Assembly (NCBI GenBank): GCA_029939505.1
Contig: JAOZSV010000008.1
Coordinates: forward strand, 1 to 41,525
Source: Thiotrichaceae bacterium
GTDB lineage: Bacteria; Pseudomonadota; Gammaproteobacteria; Beggiatoales; Beggiatoaceae
Direction: 5' to 3'
DNA length: 41,525 nucleotides
Of the stretch, positions 2,491 through 31,204 are shown piece by piece. A model generated the notes under the pieces. It did not search any database. It was not told the DNA's origin and saw nothing but the letters and a program-made list of their open reading frames with translations. The translations under genes were made by a program, and so were the position numbers. The stretch's first letter is position 1, and every line of letters begins with the position of its first letter.

Positions 2491-3223
2491 AATGATGGTG
2501 AATGGTGAATTTTTGTAGTGGAGAATGTTCTATAAATAATTGATGTGACGCAAAGCGATTCTATTCGAGCTTAGAAATCCGATTTTTTTTTTAAAAATCG
2601 GATTTCTTAAACCTCGTTTCGCCGCTTAGAAATCCGATTTTTTTGTTCGGAATCAGAATTTCTTAAACATCTTGGAAACATAGTGCGTAACATCAGTAAA
2701 TAATTGATTTTAATCGCTTTCCATTGTTAGAATCAGAATTTTCAGAATTTGAGAATTAACAGAATTTAAAACCTCATTAGTCAATGAAAACTCATTTTAT
2801 TTTGTAACTACTCAGCCTTGAAATCAATTTCAAGGCGTGTTCAAATGACTAGGTGCTGGAGGGCGGAAATCTTCAGTCGAGAAATCCGATTTTTTTCAAA
2901 AATCGGATTTCTTTGCCTTAAAAATGGTTTGGGAATTTCCGCCTTCCAGCACTAGCCACCAAAGCTAAAGCATTCGATATTTCAGTTTTTTTTTCAAAAA
3001 CCTCGAACTCCATCATATCCGATTATGCTTCAATACTTATAGGGGCGAGAGCGAAACCCACCAAGGGGCAGACACACAGCCCCTACAAAACTCTACATAT
3101 TCAGGGGCTGTCGGGGCATTCGAGGCTAAAGTTTTTCTTCAAAAAACTCTTCGCTTTGAATCCTGCGTGTTCGCCCGGCTTAACTTAATGGCATTGAAGC
3201 GAAGTCTTCAGACTATCTGAACG
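2491..3223. other. Gene-free repeat region between Septu and dapE
   Basis: No convincing gene. It holds a family B element (2539-2697), a short family A palindrome near 2802-2834 (GTAACTACTCAG), an AAATCCGAT hairpin near 2880-2911, decayed TTCGAGG hairpins at 2973-3006 and 3119-3160, and the family E end CTTAACTTAATGGCATTG near 3180-3198. Confidence 0.7.
2539..2697. mobile_element. Family B inverted-repeat element (MITE-like)
   Basis: Ends TGATGTGACGCA and TGCGTAACATCAGT. Internal AAATCCGATTTTT hairpins. The direct repeat AAATAA(T) flanks both sides (2534-2540 and 2698-2704), a likely target duplication of about 6 bp. No coding capacity. Confidence 0.7.
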
Positions 3224-3823
3224 TCACTCAAATAAAAAATTAATTGTCGTATAAAAAGGCGGGTATTTTCCATCAACTTTTTTGAGAAATGCAGAGACAA
3301 ATTCCATTAATTCTTCTTCTGTTAATAAGCCATCTATAAATGGTTCTATTGCATCTCTTCTCAGTGCATTGAGCTTAGTGATATCTAAACCCAGTTTTTT
3401 AATTGTTGTTCGTGCTTTTTCGTTAACCGGTTCAATATAACCATCATAAGTATATTTAAAATATTTTTCACAATCTTCATCTAATGGAGAGATTAAAAGT
3501 TTATCATCACCTTTCAAGTTACCACAATGACGTGGTTCTCCTTTCTTTATTTGGTTTTGACATGAACAAAGCATGTTAGAAAAGTCAAGGGCTTTTTCAG
3601 GATAGCACTCCTGTGGAAGAAAATGTTCAATATGACTGTCTGTTGCAATGACTTCTTGTTCACAATAACAGCAGATATAGCCTTGTTCTTCCATTAAAGC
3701 CGTCTTAACAATAGATTTTTCTGGATTTCGTAAGTTGTTATACGAAGGTTGCCAATTGTCATTGGCAAGCCCTTTCCATTCAGTGAATTTTTTAGGTTCA
3801 CTGCCCTTTTTAATCTGCTTCAT
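3224..3823 (-). CDS. ptuB: PtuB-like HNH endonuclease of a Septu-type defence pair
   Basis: Predicted nuclease effector of a two-gene anti-phage system. It matches the TIGR02646/PtuB pattern: C51-x-x-C54 (ICCYCE), H64-I-E-H67, a second metal site around C86-x-C88 with N90, and H99-C100. The 199-aa length is normal for the family. Its ATG overlaps the end of the upstream ATPase by 4 bp (ATGA), so the two are probably translated together. In the known system the ATPase gates the HNH nuclease; function here is inferred from family and gene order. Confidence 0.85.
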   Translation of the reverse strand: MKQIKKGSEPKKFTEWKGLANDNWQPSYNNLRNPEKSIVKTALMEEQGYICCYCEQEVIATDSHIEHFLPQECYPEKALDFSNMLCSCQNQIKKGEPRHCGNLKGDDKLLISPLDEDCEKYFKYTYDGYIEPVNEKARTTIKKLGLDITKLNALRRDAIEPFIDGLLTEEELMEFVSAFLKKVDGKYPPFYTTINFLFE

Positions 3824-5085
3824 TTACCAATAATTTCCATCCGTTTGAGCAAAATCTTTGCTTTAACCAATTCAGAATCCATACCTATCTCGGTTTGCAA
3901 TTCATTGATTAAATCTTTTGCCTCTGCTAATTTTTTAGCTTGAATTAATACGAACAGTTCATGTAACCGTTGCTTTTCTTTTGAAGGGCGTGCATCTGTC
4001 TCCATCAAATCCTCTAAAATACGATCTGTATTCTTACCATAAGACTCTTCTGGATTTGAGTATTCAATGCCTTTTTCGGTTTGTTTGAGTATAAACACAC
4101 TTTCCGGTTTGACATGGCTAATAATCTGTGGAGAATGCGTTGTGATAATAAATTGACAATTTGGGAATATTTTTTGTAAGTTAGGCACAATCGAACTCTG
4201 CCAACTCGGATGAAGATGTAAATCAATTTCATCAATTAAAACAATGCCATCTTGTTGCAATGGATTATCACTTTTGGGATTAGCAATGATTAAGCGGCGT
4301 ACCAAATCAGCAACTAATGCCATCAAGGTTTTTTCACCCGCCGAAAGTTGATTGATATTCAATAAAACCTTGTTTTTTTCTATACATAAATCTCCTTCTG
4401 GATTTTCTCGCCAGTTGATATGTAAATTATCGAACGTATTTTGCTCGTCGCTTATCATCTGATAAATCGCTGTGCGAATCATTTCATATCGTTTATTATT
4501 TCCATCTTGCCTTTGAATGTTTTCCTGCCATTTAAACCAAGCGAAAAAATGGTTGAAATCAAATGGGGCTTCTTTCAATGCTGATATGTAAGCTGCAAGC
4601 GTGTTGGTTTCCAAATCGACACTGGAAAAGTCTATCTCAGCAATCGGCGCATTATGAATGGAATAATAGACAAATAAAGGTAAATGCGCTTTATGTGATT
4701 CCAGCAATTTTTTGAGAAACTGGTTCAGCTCGTTATTATTGGCTGGCACTTTTAAGGAGAATTGGCTATCATCAATTGATATATCAACACTGATATTAAG
4801 CTTGTCGATATTCTTGGTTAAATTTGCTCTAATCTCTTCGCGAATACTATTATTAACCAATAAAGCGGGTAAATGGAATTTTGTAGGGGAAGCAATTTCA
4901 TTATTAAACTGAGTAATTGCGACTTCCAAAGCTCTATCAAATAAGATAGCAATACTTTTTAATATGGTGGTTTTTCCTAAACCGTTTTTTCCGATTAAAA
5001 CAGTCAGTTTTTCATGGAAATTAAGTTCAAAACTTTTAAAACAACCTATATTATTGAGTTTTAATTGGGTTAGTTTGGTTGTCAT
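3820..5085 (-). CDS. ptuA: PtuA-like AAA/ABC-type ATPase of a Septu-type defence pair
   Basis: ABC/RecF-like ATPase of 421 aa. Walker A is GKNGLGKT at residues 32-39, the signature is LSAGEK at 247-252, Walker B is IVLIDE at 281-286 with the following LHLHP, and the H-loop is TTHSP with H317. A helical C-terminal tail of about 70 residues (RLHELFVLIQAKKLAEA...) follows. The HNH partner overlaps its stop codon. No reverse transcriptase or msr/msd-like RNA is adjacent, so this looks like a stand-alone Septu pair and not a retron-borne one. Confidence 0.85.
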   Translation of the reverse strand: MTTKLTQLKLNNIGCFKSFELNFHEKLTVLIGKNGLGKTTILKSIAILFDRALEVAITQFNNEIASPTKFHLPALLVNNSIREEIRANLTKNIDKLNISVDISIDDSQFSLKVPANNNELNQFLKKLLESHKAHLPLFVYYSIHNAPIAEIDFSSVDLETNTLAAYISALKEAPFDFNHFFAWFKWQENIQRQDGNNKRYEMIRTAIYQMISDEQNTFDNLHINWRENPEGDLCIEKNKVLLNINQLSAGEKTLMALVADLVRRLIIANPKSDNPLQQDGIVLIDEIDLHLHPSWQSSIVPNLQKIFPNCQFIITTHSPQIISHVKPESVFILKQTEKGIEYSNPEESYGKNTDRILEDLMETDARPSKEKQRLHELFVLIQAKKLAEAKDLINELQTEIGMDSELVKAKILLKRMEIIGK

Positions 5086-19660: not shown

Positions 19661-20286
19661 TTAAGCCCTTTTCCCACTTTCTCCCGTCATCACCGCTTTC
19701 CCGATTAAATGCGCTAAACGCAACGCTTCTGGTACATGTCCAGTGTGTGTCAGTTGGTGAAGAATTTGACCAACGGTTTCGAGGCTAAAGTTTTTCTTTA
19801 AAAAACTTTAGCCTCGAAAGGATTTTCGCCTGGTGCTTGAAAATAAAAAGGTTCTTGTACCTGAATTGGCCCCGCTTTTTGAATCAAGGAAAGGCGTTTA
19901 GCCGTATTCGGCAAATTTTTAAGGGCCTTTTCAATCGCTATCATATTGGGCAATTTACGCATGACAGAAACACAGGGACGTTTCAAACGGCGAGCTAAAA
20001 AAGGTAAATCAATTAAATTAAAACCGCCGACGGCTAAACCATCAATCAAGATCAAATGGACTTGATCATAAAATTTGCTATTCAATAGCAATTCGCTCAA
20101 TACGGCTGTCGCATCATCACCATCTTTTTGTACCGTTCCCCATAGCATCCCTTCAAAGCGTGTTCCAGCGCAAACCACACCAGCGACATTAACACTCGCC
20201 CCTTGTTGATTTTCAAATGGCGCGTCATCAAAGCCAATAACACGAATAACCCGTTTTTTTTGAAGCAATTGTTCGAGGTTTTTCAT
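19661..20286 (-). pseudogene. DUF99 family protein, split by a hairpin
   Basis: DUF99 (UPF0215) protein. Start ATG at 20286 with AGGAT nearby. The body reads RVIGFDDAPF..., CAGTRFEGMLWG..., LILIDGLAVGGFNLIDL, RPCVSVMRKLP. A 41-bp hairpin at 19778-19818 follows ...FQAPGENP and gives FEAKVF and a stop. Beyond it the true C-terminus resumes in another frame: TVGQILHQLTHTGHVPEALR, then LAHLIGKAVMTGESGKRA, stop at 19661. The separated pieces are well conserved, so the insertion looks recent. The DUF99 function is not firmly known. Confidence 0.85.
19778..19818. repeat. TTCGAGG hairpin inside DUF99 gene, core CTAAAG
   Basis: Perfect 41-bp palindrome; the flanking T and A extend pairing by one. 41 is not a multiple of three, and a stop codon is introduced. 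Confidence 0.9.
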
Positions 20287-25835: not shown

Positions 25836-26362
25836 ATGTCTCAAGTCCCTTTTAAACGCTCTAATTATACGCTTAGTGCATGTGACTTACGCGAATTAAC
25901 CCAAGAAGAAATGGTCAAAGTCAGTCAATCCCTCGTACAAATGGAGCCTTGGCGTACATTAGGCTATTCTGCGGAATCTCTATCAAACTATTTACATCGC
26001 CCTGATCCATTACTTTATAAATATGCTTTCGAGGCTAAAGTTTTTTCGTTAAAAAAACTTTAGCCTCGAAAGTTGTTCATAACAAAATCGTCGGGGTTAT
26101 GTGTGTGCGCTATCCTTGGTTACGAGGTGCGTGTTTAAAATTATTGGCTATTTATCCCTCACAACAGGGACAAGGATTAGGGCGTGATATAATACAATGG
26201 CTCGAATTACACCATTTACGCAATCTCTGGACTTTAGTTTCCTCATTTAACCATGATGCACGTCATTTTTATCAAAAAATGGGGTTTGTGGAAATTGGTC
26301 AATTGGACGATTTTATTGTAGCGGGTTATGATGAAATCTTATTGCGTAAAGTCAGTATATAG
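25836..26362 (+). pseudogene. GNAT acetyltransferase (RimI-like), split by a hairpin
   Basis: AAGAGG precedes the ATG at 25836. The first part (TLSACDLRELTQEEMVKVSQ... PDPLLYKYA) ends in FEAKVFSLKKL and a stop caused by the 43-bp hairpin at 26028-26070. The acetyl-CoA-binding part continues in another frame (VVHNKIVGVMCVRYPWLRG, then QGQGLGRDIIQWLE, FYQKMGFVEIG). Both parts are otherwise well kept, suggesting recent disruption. Confidence 0.85.
26028..26070. repeat. TTCGAGG hairpin inside GNAT gene, core CTAAAG
   Basis: Perfect 43-bp palindrome; the flanking T and A extend pairing. 43 bp shifts the frame. Confidence 0.9.
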
Positions 26363-26986: not shown

Positions 26987-27112
26987 CCAGGTCGGGTGGG
27001 CAACTTTGGTGCAACGGCACATTTTCCAATAAACGAATTAATGGTCTGAATCCGCTAAGTGGACATTGTTTGCGGCTTTGTTAGCACAATAAGAGGCGTT
27101 CTGGGTTTTAAT

Positions 27113-28135
27113 ATGCGATTTATATTTACTGTTAAGAATTTTGGCCAAATTAAAGAAGCAAAGGTTCAAGTTAAAAATTTGACGGTATTAGCTGGGCAGA
27201 ATAACTCTGGAAAAACCTATGTTTCTAAGGCGTTATATTCATTTTTTAATACGATGAATACTTCAGGTATTCGTGACATATTATCTGATGAAAATACACA
27301 ACAAATTGTTGGAACGTTATTGAAAAAGGGATTAAAAATCAATTTTCAAGTTGCTAAGTTAAAAGAATTAACTTCAAATGAGACGATTTTTACTCTCAGT
27401 CATTTGGGTCAGATTAAAATGTCGGGAGAAGATGTTTCCTTCTCTATAAAGCAAGAGCATTCTCTTGATATTCTGCTAAACCTCTCTCACGTTATTTATC
27501 TTGAATCACCCATTTATTTAAAGCTTAAACCAGCATTGAGTTCTAGTCGTTTATCTGTCTATAAAGAAGAGTATATAACAGGAGTGCCAGGCTATTTTTA
27601 CGCACTAATTGATTTGCTTACTCTTCAATCAATGAATGAACCGCAATTTATTAATATACTTAATAAAATAGAAGCATCCATTGGCGGAAAACTCAAACTT
27701 TCTGATAATGGTACTTTCTTGTTTACAGATGAAAATGGAACTTATCCGATAACGACAACTGCATTGGGCATTGCTAATTTAGGATTGTTAGCTTTATTGT
27801 TGGAAAAAAATCTACTTAATTCCAATTCTTTTCTGTTTATTGACGAGCCAGAAGCACATTTACATCCACAATGGCAAGTTGTTCTTATCGAAATCTTGTA
27901 TGATCTGGCTAAAGCCGGAGTCAATATTATGATAGCAACTCATAGTATTGATATGATCAAATATATTGAGGTGATTTGGAAAAAAGAGGAACAGGCGGAA
28001 TCATTAATTGCTTTAAATTGTCTAACCACCGAAGGCAAAACCATCCATGAAGAGGCTGATTTTGATACCCGGTTAAATGCCATCAAGCAGGAATTATCTG
28101 AACCTTTTTACAATCTCTATTTGGAAGCATTATGA
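27113..28135 (+). CDS. OLD/AAA-type ATPase of an unrecognised two-gene module
   Basis: 340-aa ABC-like ATPase: Walker A GQNNSGKT (28-35), a degenerate signature region (TTTALGIANLG, about 214-224), Walker B FLFIDEPEAHLHP (240-252) and H-loop ATHS (H277). No TOPRIM domain follows, unlike full OLD nucleases. The frame is open from 27059, but the ATG at 27113 gives the standard MRFIFTVKNFGQI start. The partner gene overlaps by 4 bp (ATGA). This architecture is typical of anti-phage modules in which the ATPase controls an effector (inference). Confidence 0.8.
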   Translation: MRFIFTVKNFGQIKEAKVQVKNLTVLAGQNNSGKTYVSKALYSFFNTMNTSGIRDILSDENTQQIVGTLLKKGLKINFQVAKLKELTSNETIFTLSHLGQIKMSGEDVSFSIKQEHSLDILLNLSHVIYLESPIYLKLKPALSSSRLSVYKEEYITGVPGYFYALIDLLTLQSMNEPQFINILNKIEASIGGKLKLSDNGTFLFTDENGTYPITTTALGIANLGLLALLLEKNLLNSNSFLFIDEPEAHLHPQWQVVLIEILYDLAKAGVNIMIATHSIDMIKYIEVIWKKEEQAESLIALNCLTTEGKTIHEEADFDTRLNAIKQELSEPFYNLYLEAL

Positions 28136-28755
28136 AGAAACGCCTGTTACGTTCTTTGGTTGCGATTGATTTGGAATGTCATCGGTTTCCGAATGAAAGC
28201 ATCAATAAAAAAGCCTTACGAATGGACGGTGAATTGGGTATTCGCAAACAACTGGGTTTAGAAAATTACAACTGCTGTGATTATCTATTCGCTAAAAAAG
28301 ATAACTTATATCTTATTGAAATATCTGATTTTATTACTCAACGTAATGAATTGCAAAAGAATAACCCCATTGAAAAAATTGATAAGATAATTAGTCAGGA
28401 AAAGAATCAGAATCACTCCATCAAAGAAATTAAAAAGATAATTCGTCAGGAAAAGAAAAAGAATCCCATCAAATTAAAAAAGATAATTCGTCAGGAAATA
28501 CGCCTAAAAATAATGGGCAGTTTGATTATCCTATTTAAAATTCCGACCCAATTTTCTATAAGTTATGAAAAAATACAGGCGGGTAAAATACGAGTTATTC
28601 TCGTATTATGCAGTGATGATAGTTCTGATGTTCTTGCATTTAATTACTTGCAGGCTGATTTAAAAACGGCTCTTTCACCACTAATAACAGAAGTGAAAGT
28701 AATGGATATTCCCGGGTTCAAACATTTTCTAAATCAAAATGATACGACAATCTAA
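28132..28755 (+). CDS. Unknown partner of OLD/AAA-type ATPase
   Basis: 207 aa, no family recognised. The N-terminal third (LECHRFPNES..., LRMDGELGIRKQLGLENYNC, CDYLFAKKDNLYLIEISDF) has D-x(n)-E-I-S-D spacing that could fit a diverged PD-(D/E)XK fold; this is a guess. The middle (nt about 28376-28500) is a charged helical repeat of three KKIIRQEKK-type units. The C-terminal part returns to a sheet-like pattern (IRVILVLCSDDS). No membrane segment. ATGA overlap with the ATPase implies joint function. Confidence 0.6.
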   Translation: MKKRLLRSLVAIDLECHRFPNESINKKALRMDGELGIRKQLGLENYNCCDYLFAKKDNLYLIEISDFITQRNELQKNNPIEKIDKIISQEKNQNHSIKEIKKIIRQEKKKNPIKLKKIIRQEIRLKIMGSLIILFKIPTQFSISYEKIQAGKIRVILVLCSDDSSDVLAFNYLQADLKTALSPLITEVKVMDIPGFKHFLNQNDTTI

Positions 28756-29199: not shown

Positions 29200-30567
29200 A
29201 TGAAAATCACTCAAATTAACATTAAAGACTATAACCAATTCCAAAACCTGACTCTTGATCTGACTTATCCCAAAGGGCACGAAAAAGAAGATCAAGCCTT
29301 GGAGAAAATTTGTTTTATTGGGCAAAGTGGTACCGGAAAAACGAGTTTGTTGAATGTGCTTAGGGCTATGTTGACAACTCCTTTTTTGCAAACGGCCCTT
29401 TCAGAAAAGTACCAAAATTCTAATATGAACCATATCGTTATTACCTCTTATTTTAAAGAGGTAAAAAGCGTGACAGAAATTAGAGAGGGAAAAATCTCAT
29501 TTCGAGACTTGAAAACGGATGTGAACCCCACAAAATTTATGGAAGATTTTTATCTCGGTAAAAATATTCTTATCTGTTTTCCGGCTGAAATTATCAATAA
29601 TATTAATCAAATTTTAGCCGAAAAATCACCGCATCCCAGTTCAATTTTAAAGACGGTTACAGAAATGAAACAGCAAAAACGGGCGAAACCCCGATCCGTT
29701 TTTGATTTTGAAACCGATAATGTCTTAGAAATATGGAATGAAATTTTACAAGACATAAATGCTTATAAAATTGAAGAGCTCAAATACAGTCAGCAAATTA
29801 CCAAAGCACTTGGAATCAATGCCCAAAATGCGGATCGTGCTTTTGAAAATTATAAGCGGTGGAAACAAAAAAATCCCAACCCAATTGAACAATTAGCGCA
29901 ACAACTCAATCCCATTTTGAATAAATTTTCATTAGCCGTCAAAACGTCATTTGACTTTGAAAGTATTGAAGATTTGAAATTTATTCAAATTCAATCCAAG
30001 GGTGGCACTGAAATTCCATACAGCGGCTGGAGTACTGGCACCAAGCAAGTGATTTTAACGATGACTCCGCTGTTTAAATTGAACACGGATGAGAGTATTA
30101 TTTTGGTAGATGAGCCAGAAAGATCATTATATCCTGATATTCAAACTGAAATTATCAACAACTACAAAAGTGCAGCGCCTAGGGCGCAATTCTTTTTCGC
30201 CACCCACTCGCCGATTATCGCATCGGCATTTGAGCCTTGGGAAATTGTTGAATTAAAATTTAACGATCAAGGTACCGTTTATCAAGAAAAATACTACAAG
30301 GGTGAACGACATGTCGATAATTATTTCATTGATCCGCGTTATTTACGTTGGGATGTGATATTAATGCGTGTATTTGATTTAGGCATAGAAGGTAACGAAA
30401 AATTCAGGAATAGAGCACTGACTAAGGCGGCTCGATTAGAAACGGTTCTTTCAAAACTCAGGGCAGAAAATAAAATGGATACAGAAGAAGCTCAAAAAAT
30501 ATGGGCAGACTATTTAAAACTGGCAACCAAATTAGCTTGGAGATTAGATGGGTATGAGGAAGATTGA
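29200..30567 (+). CDS. PtuA-like AAA/ABC-type ATPase, second Septu-like pair
   Basis: 455 aa. Walker A GQSGTGKT (41-48), signature-like YSGWSTGTKQ (274-283), Walker B SIILVDE (299-305) followed by PERSLYPD, and H-loop ATHSP (H336). A central helical insertion (about 140-250) and a C-terminal tail (about 400-455) are present. It overlaps an HNH-related partner, the same order as the pair at 3224-5085, but sequence similarity between the two ATPases is limited to the motifs. Probable defence ATPase. Confidence 0.78.
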   Translation: MKITQINIKDYNQFQNLTLDLTYPKGHEKEDQALEKICFIGQSGTGKTSLLNVLRAMLTTPFLQTALSEKYQNSNMNHIVITSYFKEVKSVTEIREGKISFRDLKTDVNPTKFMEDFYLGKNILICFPAEIINNINQILAEKSPHPSSILKTVTEMKQQKRAKPRSVFDFETDNVLEIWNEILQDINAYKIEELKYSQQITKALGINAQNADRAFENYKRWKQKNPNPIEQLAQQLNPILNKFSLAVKTSFDFESIEDLKFIQIQSKGGTEIPYSGWSTGTKQVILTMTPLFKLNTDESIILVDEPERSLYPDIQTEIINNYKSAAPRAQFFFATHSPIIASAFEPWEIVELKFNDQGTVYQEKYYKGERHVDNYFIDPRYLRWDVILMRVFDLGIEGNEKFRNRALTKAARLETVLSKLRAENKMDTEEAQKIWADYLKLATKLAWRLDGYEED

Positions 30568-31204
30568 TAAAACTCAAATTCTAGCCACCGAATATCAATT
30601 GTGGATAAAGCAATTAAAAGGGCAAACACATCCTAAATATTCTTCCTCACATAAATATTATAAAGATGTGTTGATCAGTTTACTTTATTGTCAACAAGGT
30701 TTATGTGCTTATACAGAAATTCTGATTGCCGAAGAAGAAAGATATCGTCCAGAAAATTTTGATAAAAAAGGGAGATATATTGATAAAGGAAAACCAGAAT
30801 CCAGCTTTTCAGCCCAGTTAGATCATTTTAACAGCCACCTTAAAGAAAAATATGGGTGGGGCTGGAATAATTTTTTTGCGATTTCCGATAAAATCAATAT
30901 TGAAAAAGGCACGCAAACGGTGGATGATATTTTGAAACCAGATTCTCCAGAATATGATCCTCATAAACTGCTAGGCTATAATGAAAAAAGGCATATTTTT
31001 CATGTCCACCCTGATATTGAAGATGAAAGCCTACAGATCAGAATTGAAAATATGATCCTGGTATTAGGGCTTAACCAAGGTACAATCAAAGATAATAGAA
31101 GAGCGTACTTAGAACCCAAGAAAAAAAGCCTTGCTTTAGGTAAAGAAATAGAACCCGTTTATCAATTTTTCACGGCTTTTGAAATGATTGAAGAAAAATT
31201 ATAA
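30554..31204 (+). CDS. PtuB-related HNH protein lacking zinc cysteines
   Basis: 216 aa. It aligns by pattern to PtuB/TIGR02646: QGLCAYTE replaces the CxxC motif (C51, T54), QLDHFNSHLKEKYGWGWNNF (D90-H91, W104-N105) matches the usual DHF...W-N core, and SDKIN replaces the second Cys pair. The catalytic His-Asn arrangement may be kept while the structural zinc is lost. Two starts (30548, 30554) are possible; MRKID at 30554 is the usual N-terminus of the family. Overlaps the ATPase by 14 bp. Confidence 0.65.
   Translation: MRKIDKTQILATEYQLWIKQLKGQTHPKYSSSHKYYKDVLISLLYCQQGLCAYTEILIAEEERYRPENFDKKGRYIDKGKPESSFSAQLDHFNSHLKEKYGWGWNNFFAISDKINIEKGTQTVDDILKPDSPEYDPHKLLGYNEKRHIFHVHPDIEDESLQIRIENMILVLGLNQGTIKDNRRAYLEPKKKSLALGKEIEPVYQFFTAFEMIEEKL

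Follow-up and report, generated by a model that had tools for sequence, protein, structure and literature searches.

A conserved branch of Septu type I-like gene pairs whose HNH protein lacks the zinc cysteines

Two Septu-like gene pairs in one window

The window, by which we mean the whole stretch of 41,525 nucleotides that was analysed, carries two pairs of adjacent genes for a PtuA-type ATPase and a PtuB-type HNH protein (Table 1). The original prediction held that there is a second Septu-like pair at 29200-31204 with an HNH protein devoid of zinc cysteines; the open reading frames and the matches to PADLOC PtuA1 and PtuB1 models bear this out, and the only cysteines in the HNH protein are C48 and C53 (218-aa numbering, used below unless stated otherwise). 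In the 218-aa reading of the HNH gene the two open reading frames share 20 nt. Since homologues begin at MRKIDK, the gene probably starts at 30554, which would give a protein of 216 aa and a 14-nt overlap.

The ATPase is matched by PADLOC PtuA1 PDLC00274 (257 bits, E=8.7e-77, residues 1-361) and also by Pfam AAA_15/AAA_21, and its residues K47, D304, E305 and H336 are kept among aligned homologues. The HNH protein (E=2e-12) matches the PADLOC models HNH_I-A (45.7 bits) and PtuB1 (42 bits), and lies below the curated NCBIfam cut-offs (33 against 150 bits for PtuB NF041761; 25.5 against 52 for TIGR02646). Given these E-values for the two proteins, and conservation in more than 12 genomes, chance similarity is excluded. 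The other pair, 24 kb away on the same contig, is canonical, as had been predicted: both of its proteins match the Septu models strongly, and its PtuB has four cysteines (C51, C54, C88 and C100).

Directly upstream of the zinc-free pair, at 27059-28755, lies an overlapping pair of genes that code for a HEC-02A-like ATPase (PADLOC, 138 bits) and for a 207-aa protein without a family match; this is possibly another defence module.

Table 1. Features of the two Septu-like pairs in the window
Feature	Coordinates	Strand	Evidence
Canonical Cys4 PtuB (comparison)	3224..3823	-	PADLOC PtuB1 PDLC00320, 257 bits
PtuA of canonical pair	3820..5085	-	PADLOC PtuA1 PDLC00271, 386 bits
PtuA-type ABC/AAA_15 ATPase, 455 aa	29200..30567	+	PADLOC PtuA1 PDLC00274, Pfam AAA_15/AAA_21, Foldseek
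ATPase motifs: Walker A G41QSGTGKTS (K47), signature S278TGTK, Walker B D304EPE, H-switch H336			Aligned homologues
PtuB-type HNH protein without zinc Cys4 site, 218 aa	30548..31204	+	PADLOC, hhalign, VIA-align
C53-A-Y-T56-E57, first zinc knuckle, Thr replacing second Cys	30704..30718	+	Invariant in 13 homologues; aligns with CxxC of canonical PtuB
D92-H93-F94, HNH general-base His motif	30821..30829	+	H93 invariant in all aligned PtuB-like proteins
W104-x-W-x-N108 ... N117-x2-K120, HNH Asn, third position, Lys	30857..30907	+	Alignments; S113 and I116 at the Cys3 and Cys4 places

Fate of the zinc site

The HNH core reads LD92H93F and W104GWNN108F, and both the sequence and the alignment agree with the prediction of a DHF...WGWNNF core in which CAYT stands in place of CxxC and no second pair of cysteines is present. 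An hhalign comparison of the window branch with ten Cys4 PtuB-like proteins (probability 99%, 186 columns) pairs C53 and T56 with the first CxxC, and H93 and N108 with the HNH residues. Cysteine states were read from a column table built on 43 PtuB-like proteins. In the Cys-bearing forms the third cysteine stands five residues and the fourth eight residues after the HNH Asn, followed by Asn, two further residues and Lys. The equivalents of the four cysteines in the window protein are C53 (kept), T56, S113 and I116, and H93, N108, N117 and K120 are all retained; within the main branch position 113 varies (S, Q, D, G, H or L), and position 116 is I, V or T. We read this as a structural zinc site that has most likely been replaced in place, Cys2 by Thr, Cys3 by variable residues and Cys4 by Ile, Val or Thr, a reading taken from the sequence since the model of the HNH core lacks confidence (mean pLDDT 50).

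That AlphaFold2 model, built from seven homologues, is good only at about residues 140-200. Its top Foldseek hit is 8EEA_G, a chain of PtuAB from E. coli Septu, at a probability of 0.96 although E is 0.08. VIA-align gives 12 matches that reach a Z of 2, every one of them to a PtuB-containing entry (the top one at Z 5.7, with an rmsd of 3.1 across 90 residues); the Z values are modest, and the weight of the comparison lies in nothing but PtuB entries matching the model. The leading Foldseek matches of the ATPase model (pLDDT 59) are to PtuA of retron I-A and of Septu (E 3e-10).

The same state is found elsewhere in PtuB. A sister group that resembles PADLOC PtuB1 PDLC00347 (one member, L021, scores 182 bits against this model) has CAYT or CAYS, lacks a second Cys pair and has no insertion separating CAYTE from the His motif. 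Further zinc-less proteins (L036, L041 and L034) match additional PtuB1 models, their partners belonging to other PtuA groups. There are also intermediates: L044 has three cysteines, with Cys3 and Cys4 retained and CCYTE at the first knuckle, and L043 has two, with CAFSE plus one later Cys. Two explanations of the missing site were rejected, namely that the insertion after CAYTE substitutes for zinc, since the PDLC00347-like group is without both insertion and zinc site, and that the change is an adaptation to sulfide-rich, zinc-poor habitats, since a Cys4 PtuB is coded in the same window and the branch is found mainly in Bacteroidota.

Distribution and conservation of the branch

The CAYTE motif occurs together with the same ATPase subfamily in about a dozen homologues from Thiotrichales and Bacteroidota. 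The closest HNH relative, from Candidatus Marithrix, is 79% identical, others in the same family are 67% and 59% identical, and those in Bacteroidota (Runella, Emticicia and several MAGs) are 34-47% identical. CAYTE, [DE]H[FY] and WxWxN...N..K are conserved in 13 homologues from the two phyla, the invariant residues being Y38, D40, Q49, C53, A54, Y55, T56, E57, H93, W104, W106, N108, N117 and K120. Where complete in the available stretch, the neighbouring gene codes for an ATPase with LTYPxxHxKxGxPLDKVCFIGQSGTGKT or a close variant, and the two genes overlap in most homologues.

These data bear on the residues that had been singled out for conservation (D90, H91 and N105 in 216-aa numbering). 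The His stands (H93 here) and the Asp position is either D or E; N105 is variable, and it is the next Asn, N106 (N108 here), that is invariant. The expected absence of cysteines from homologues is also seen, all 13 having the same CAYTE and no second Cys pair. Homologues with intact cysteines would have marked the window gene as a merely decayed copy, but none was found inside the branch, the Cys-bearing relatives lying outside it. A separate zinc-free branch of PtuB, as had been proposed, is therefore supported by the homologues and, as set out below, by the PtuA tree.

The pair has no match in 72,556 plasmids or in 50,697 phages, and viral contigs scanned to deepen the alignment yielded no confirmed relative. 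A class-wide PtuA search scored four candidates per genome, so the frequency it gives is an underestimate. A related pair at L019:2369-5124 has an ATPase with about 240 extra N-terminal residues (685 aa in total). In Runella, a Cytophagaceae MAG and an Emticicia MAG (the last judged by its downstream genes) the zinc-free pair sits inside a trp gene cluster, right behind trpB (L004:1014-5666, L007:258-6899 and L006:133-1500), a placement that is unusual for a defence module; the trp genes in these clusters were named from their sequences.

History of the cysteine loss

The history of the trait was examined on an unrooted tree of 39 partner ATPases, that is, of the protein other than the one that carries the trait. 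A single clade (100/99) unites sixteen zinc-free pairs; L036 lies next to this clade at the end of a long branch, and L041 joins the canonical PtuA of the window (99/96). The tree has several long end branches, and the positions of L034 and L036 are uncertain. The two window ATPases are widely separated. The zinc-free label needs three changes on this tree, at least two of them forced by well-supported branches, and a single origin of all zinc-free proteins is rejected (p-AU 0.0096; 0.031 when the long-branched L034 is left out). On the strength of the tree and of the rejected single origin we conclude that the main branch lost its cysteines long ago and that PtuB has lost them repeatedly, with at least one separate loss beyond the large clade, a recurrence that goes further than the original prediction. 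The direction of change would be loss, not gain; it is taken from the wider HNH superfamily since the tree is unrooted.

Selection and decay

Comparison of the window pair with L003, the pair from Marithrix, gives a dN/dS (NG86) of 0.16 in the HNH gene and 0.15 in the ATPase gene; dS is saturated for the other pairs, which makes their dN/dS less reliable. Three genomes of the same family have decayed ATPase copies, and the HNH gene there is missing or cut: in L010 an interrupted ATPase gene stands with an HNH gene truncated at 36 codons, and the two other genomes hold fragments. Among these decayed copies no intact HNH gene of the branch was found beside a decayed ATPase, which suggests that the two genes work together.

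The PtuA gene of L010 (Ca. Parabeggiatoa sp. 1) carries a clean, in-frame insertion of some 42 nt that forms a perfect palindrome and for which the window represents the empty site (29571/29572); the palindromes in this gene lie at 2685-2728 and, as a related second copy, at 3065-3108. Similar palindromes are present in the window at 26027-26071 and 19777-19819, and one of the window palindromes splits the two halves of an apparently broken GNAT-type ORF (25836-26362). There are six more palindromes in the genome, compared with none in the control. These palindromes look like a mobile element.

Proposed function and alternatives

As a variant of a known defence system the pair is unusual, but it is no broken copy, and its branch is old and conserved. 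We consider it likely that it forms a Septu type I-like defence module of a distinct branch, with an HNH nuclease that has had its zinc site replaced, has kept its catalytic residues and would be active. Immunity by Septu EcB88 depends on the PtuA Walker motifs as well as on the His and Asn of the PtuB HNH motif, of which the His H75 is essential, and cleavage of tRNA-Tyr takes place within the variable loop (PMC13096335). Retron-Eco7 PtuAB depletes tRNA-Tyr, while Septu PtuAB has been described as DNA-degrading (PMC11555353). Because the window pair keeps the equivalents of the residues needed in EcB88, its PtuB is most likely an HNH effector that is active without zinc and answers to its ATPase. 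By analogy with the solved Septu and retron complexes, PtuA, an ABC-type ATPase, would bind and restrain PtuB and sense infection. PtuB most likely cuts nucleic acid, either DNA or a tRNA, using a single catalytic metal ion, and the packing of side chains would stabilise its fold in place of zinc. Structural zinc is also absent from HNH proteins elsewhere, as in colicins and Cas9. The analysis establishes homology and conservation of the pair, its pairing, the purifying selection and the tree, whereas nuclease activity, the absence of bound zinc, the target, the trigger and an anti-phage function are inferences.

A bolder reading, which we regard as unlikely, is that the loss of zinc is itself functional, yielding a zinc-independent effector with a target or activation mode unlike that of canonical PtuB, so that one cell would have two Septu nucleases with different metal needs. 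It is improbable that a structural metal is still bound through a rearranged site in which C48 and C53 act together with ligands other than cysteine: C53 never varies and 12 of the 13 main-branch members have C48, but C48 is Val in L027 and is absent from the sister PDLC00347-like group that keeps CAYT/S, no other Cys is invariant, and the sole invariant His is the catalytic H93. The original prediction also offered an inactive regulator, and a catalytically dead PtuB paralogue kept as regulator or structural partner of PtuA might be entertained because loss of a structural site could accompany loss of activity and because the same contig carries a canonical pair 24 kb away. The invariance of H93, N108, N117 and K120, the purifying selection, and the fact that the HNH gene is gone or cut where the ATPase has decayed, however, make this quite improbable; moreover, CAYTE proteins each come with an ATPase of their own subfamily, and the tree sets the two window ATPases far apart, so the HNH protein is no accessory of the canonical pair. 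That it is a decayed, inactive PtuB with recently lost cysteines is hardly credible, for although the locus has truly decayed in relatives (L010 and the fragments in two other genomes), the same cysteine-free motif is found in two phyla and in homologues with as little as about 40% identity, dN/dS is about 0.16 and every catalytic residue is kept.

Comparison with known systems

The system is known in kind, given that HNH proteins free of structural zinc occur elsewhere and that PADLOC PtuB1 models match zinc-less proteins. To our knowledge, the Cys4 zinc site is typical of canonical PtuB but is not in the definition of Septu type I. An ATPase with intact Walker motifs is followed directly downstream by an HNH gene with the catalytic His and Asn, as in Septu type I; a Cys is found at one of the four Cys4 positions (C53), and the Cys4 feature is likewise missing in other proteins with strong matches to PADLOC PtuB1 models. 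The pair is a Septu type I variant; that zinc-less proteins match PADLOC PtuB1 models well was not part of the original prediction. Open-licence papers yielded no account of a PtuB branch without zinc. Within one defence family the PtuB proteins grade from four cysteines through three (L044) and two (L043) to one, the state of a large conserved clade, and the catalytic residues are kept throughout. This is a natural experiment on what zinc does for PtuB, whether it serves stability, control or docking to PtuA, and a search that relied on CxxC would overlook a real Septu branch.

The effectors of Retron I-A (Ec78/Eco7 and Ec83 PtuAB) have homologous PtuA and PtuB and are among the best structural matches, but their cysteines differ, and no reverse transcriptase (RVT) match was found among the window ORFs scanned with Pfam. 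Pairs that match PADLOC PtuA1 PDLC00274 and PtuB1 PDLC00347 have the same ATPase subfamily and include Bacteroidota members with CAYT/S and no second Cys pair; the PDLC00347 PtuBs, however, are without the insertion and the QFFTAFEM tail, and the window PtuB matches this model weakly (42 bits). The window PtuB, 10-20% identical to solved PtuBs, differs from Septu type I (E. coli PtuAB, PDB 8EEA; EcB88) in being without the zinc Cys4 site, and its branch is about 20-25 residues longer than canonical PtuB between CAYTE and DHF, but it shares with Septu type I the adjacent ATPase and HNH genes, the ABC ATPase motifs, the HNH His and Asn, and the C-terminal half of PtuB.
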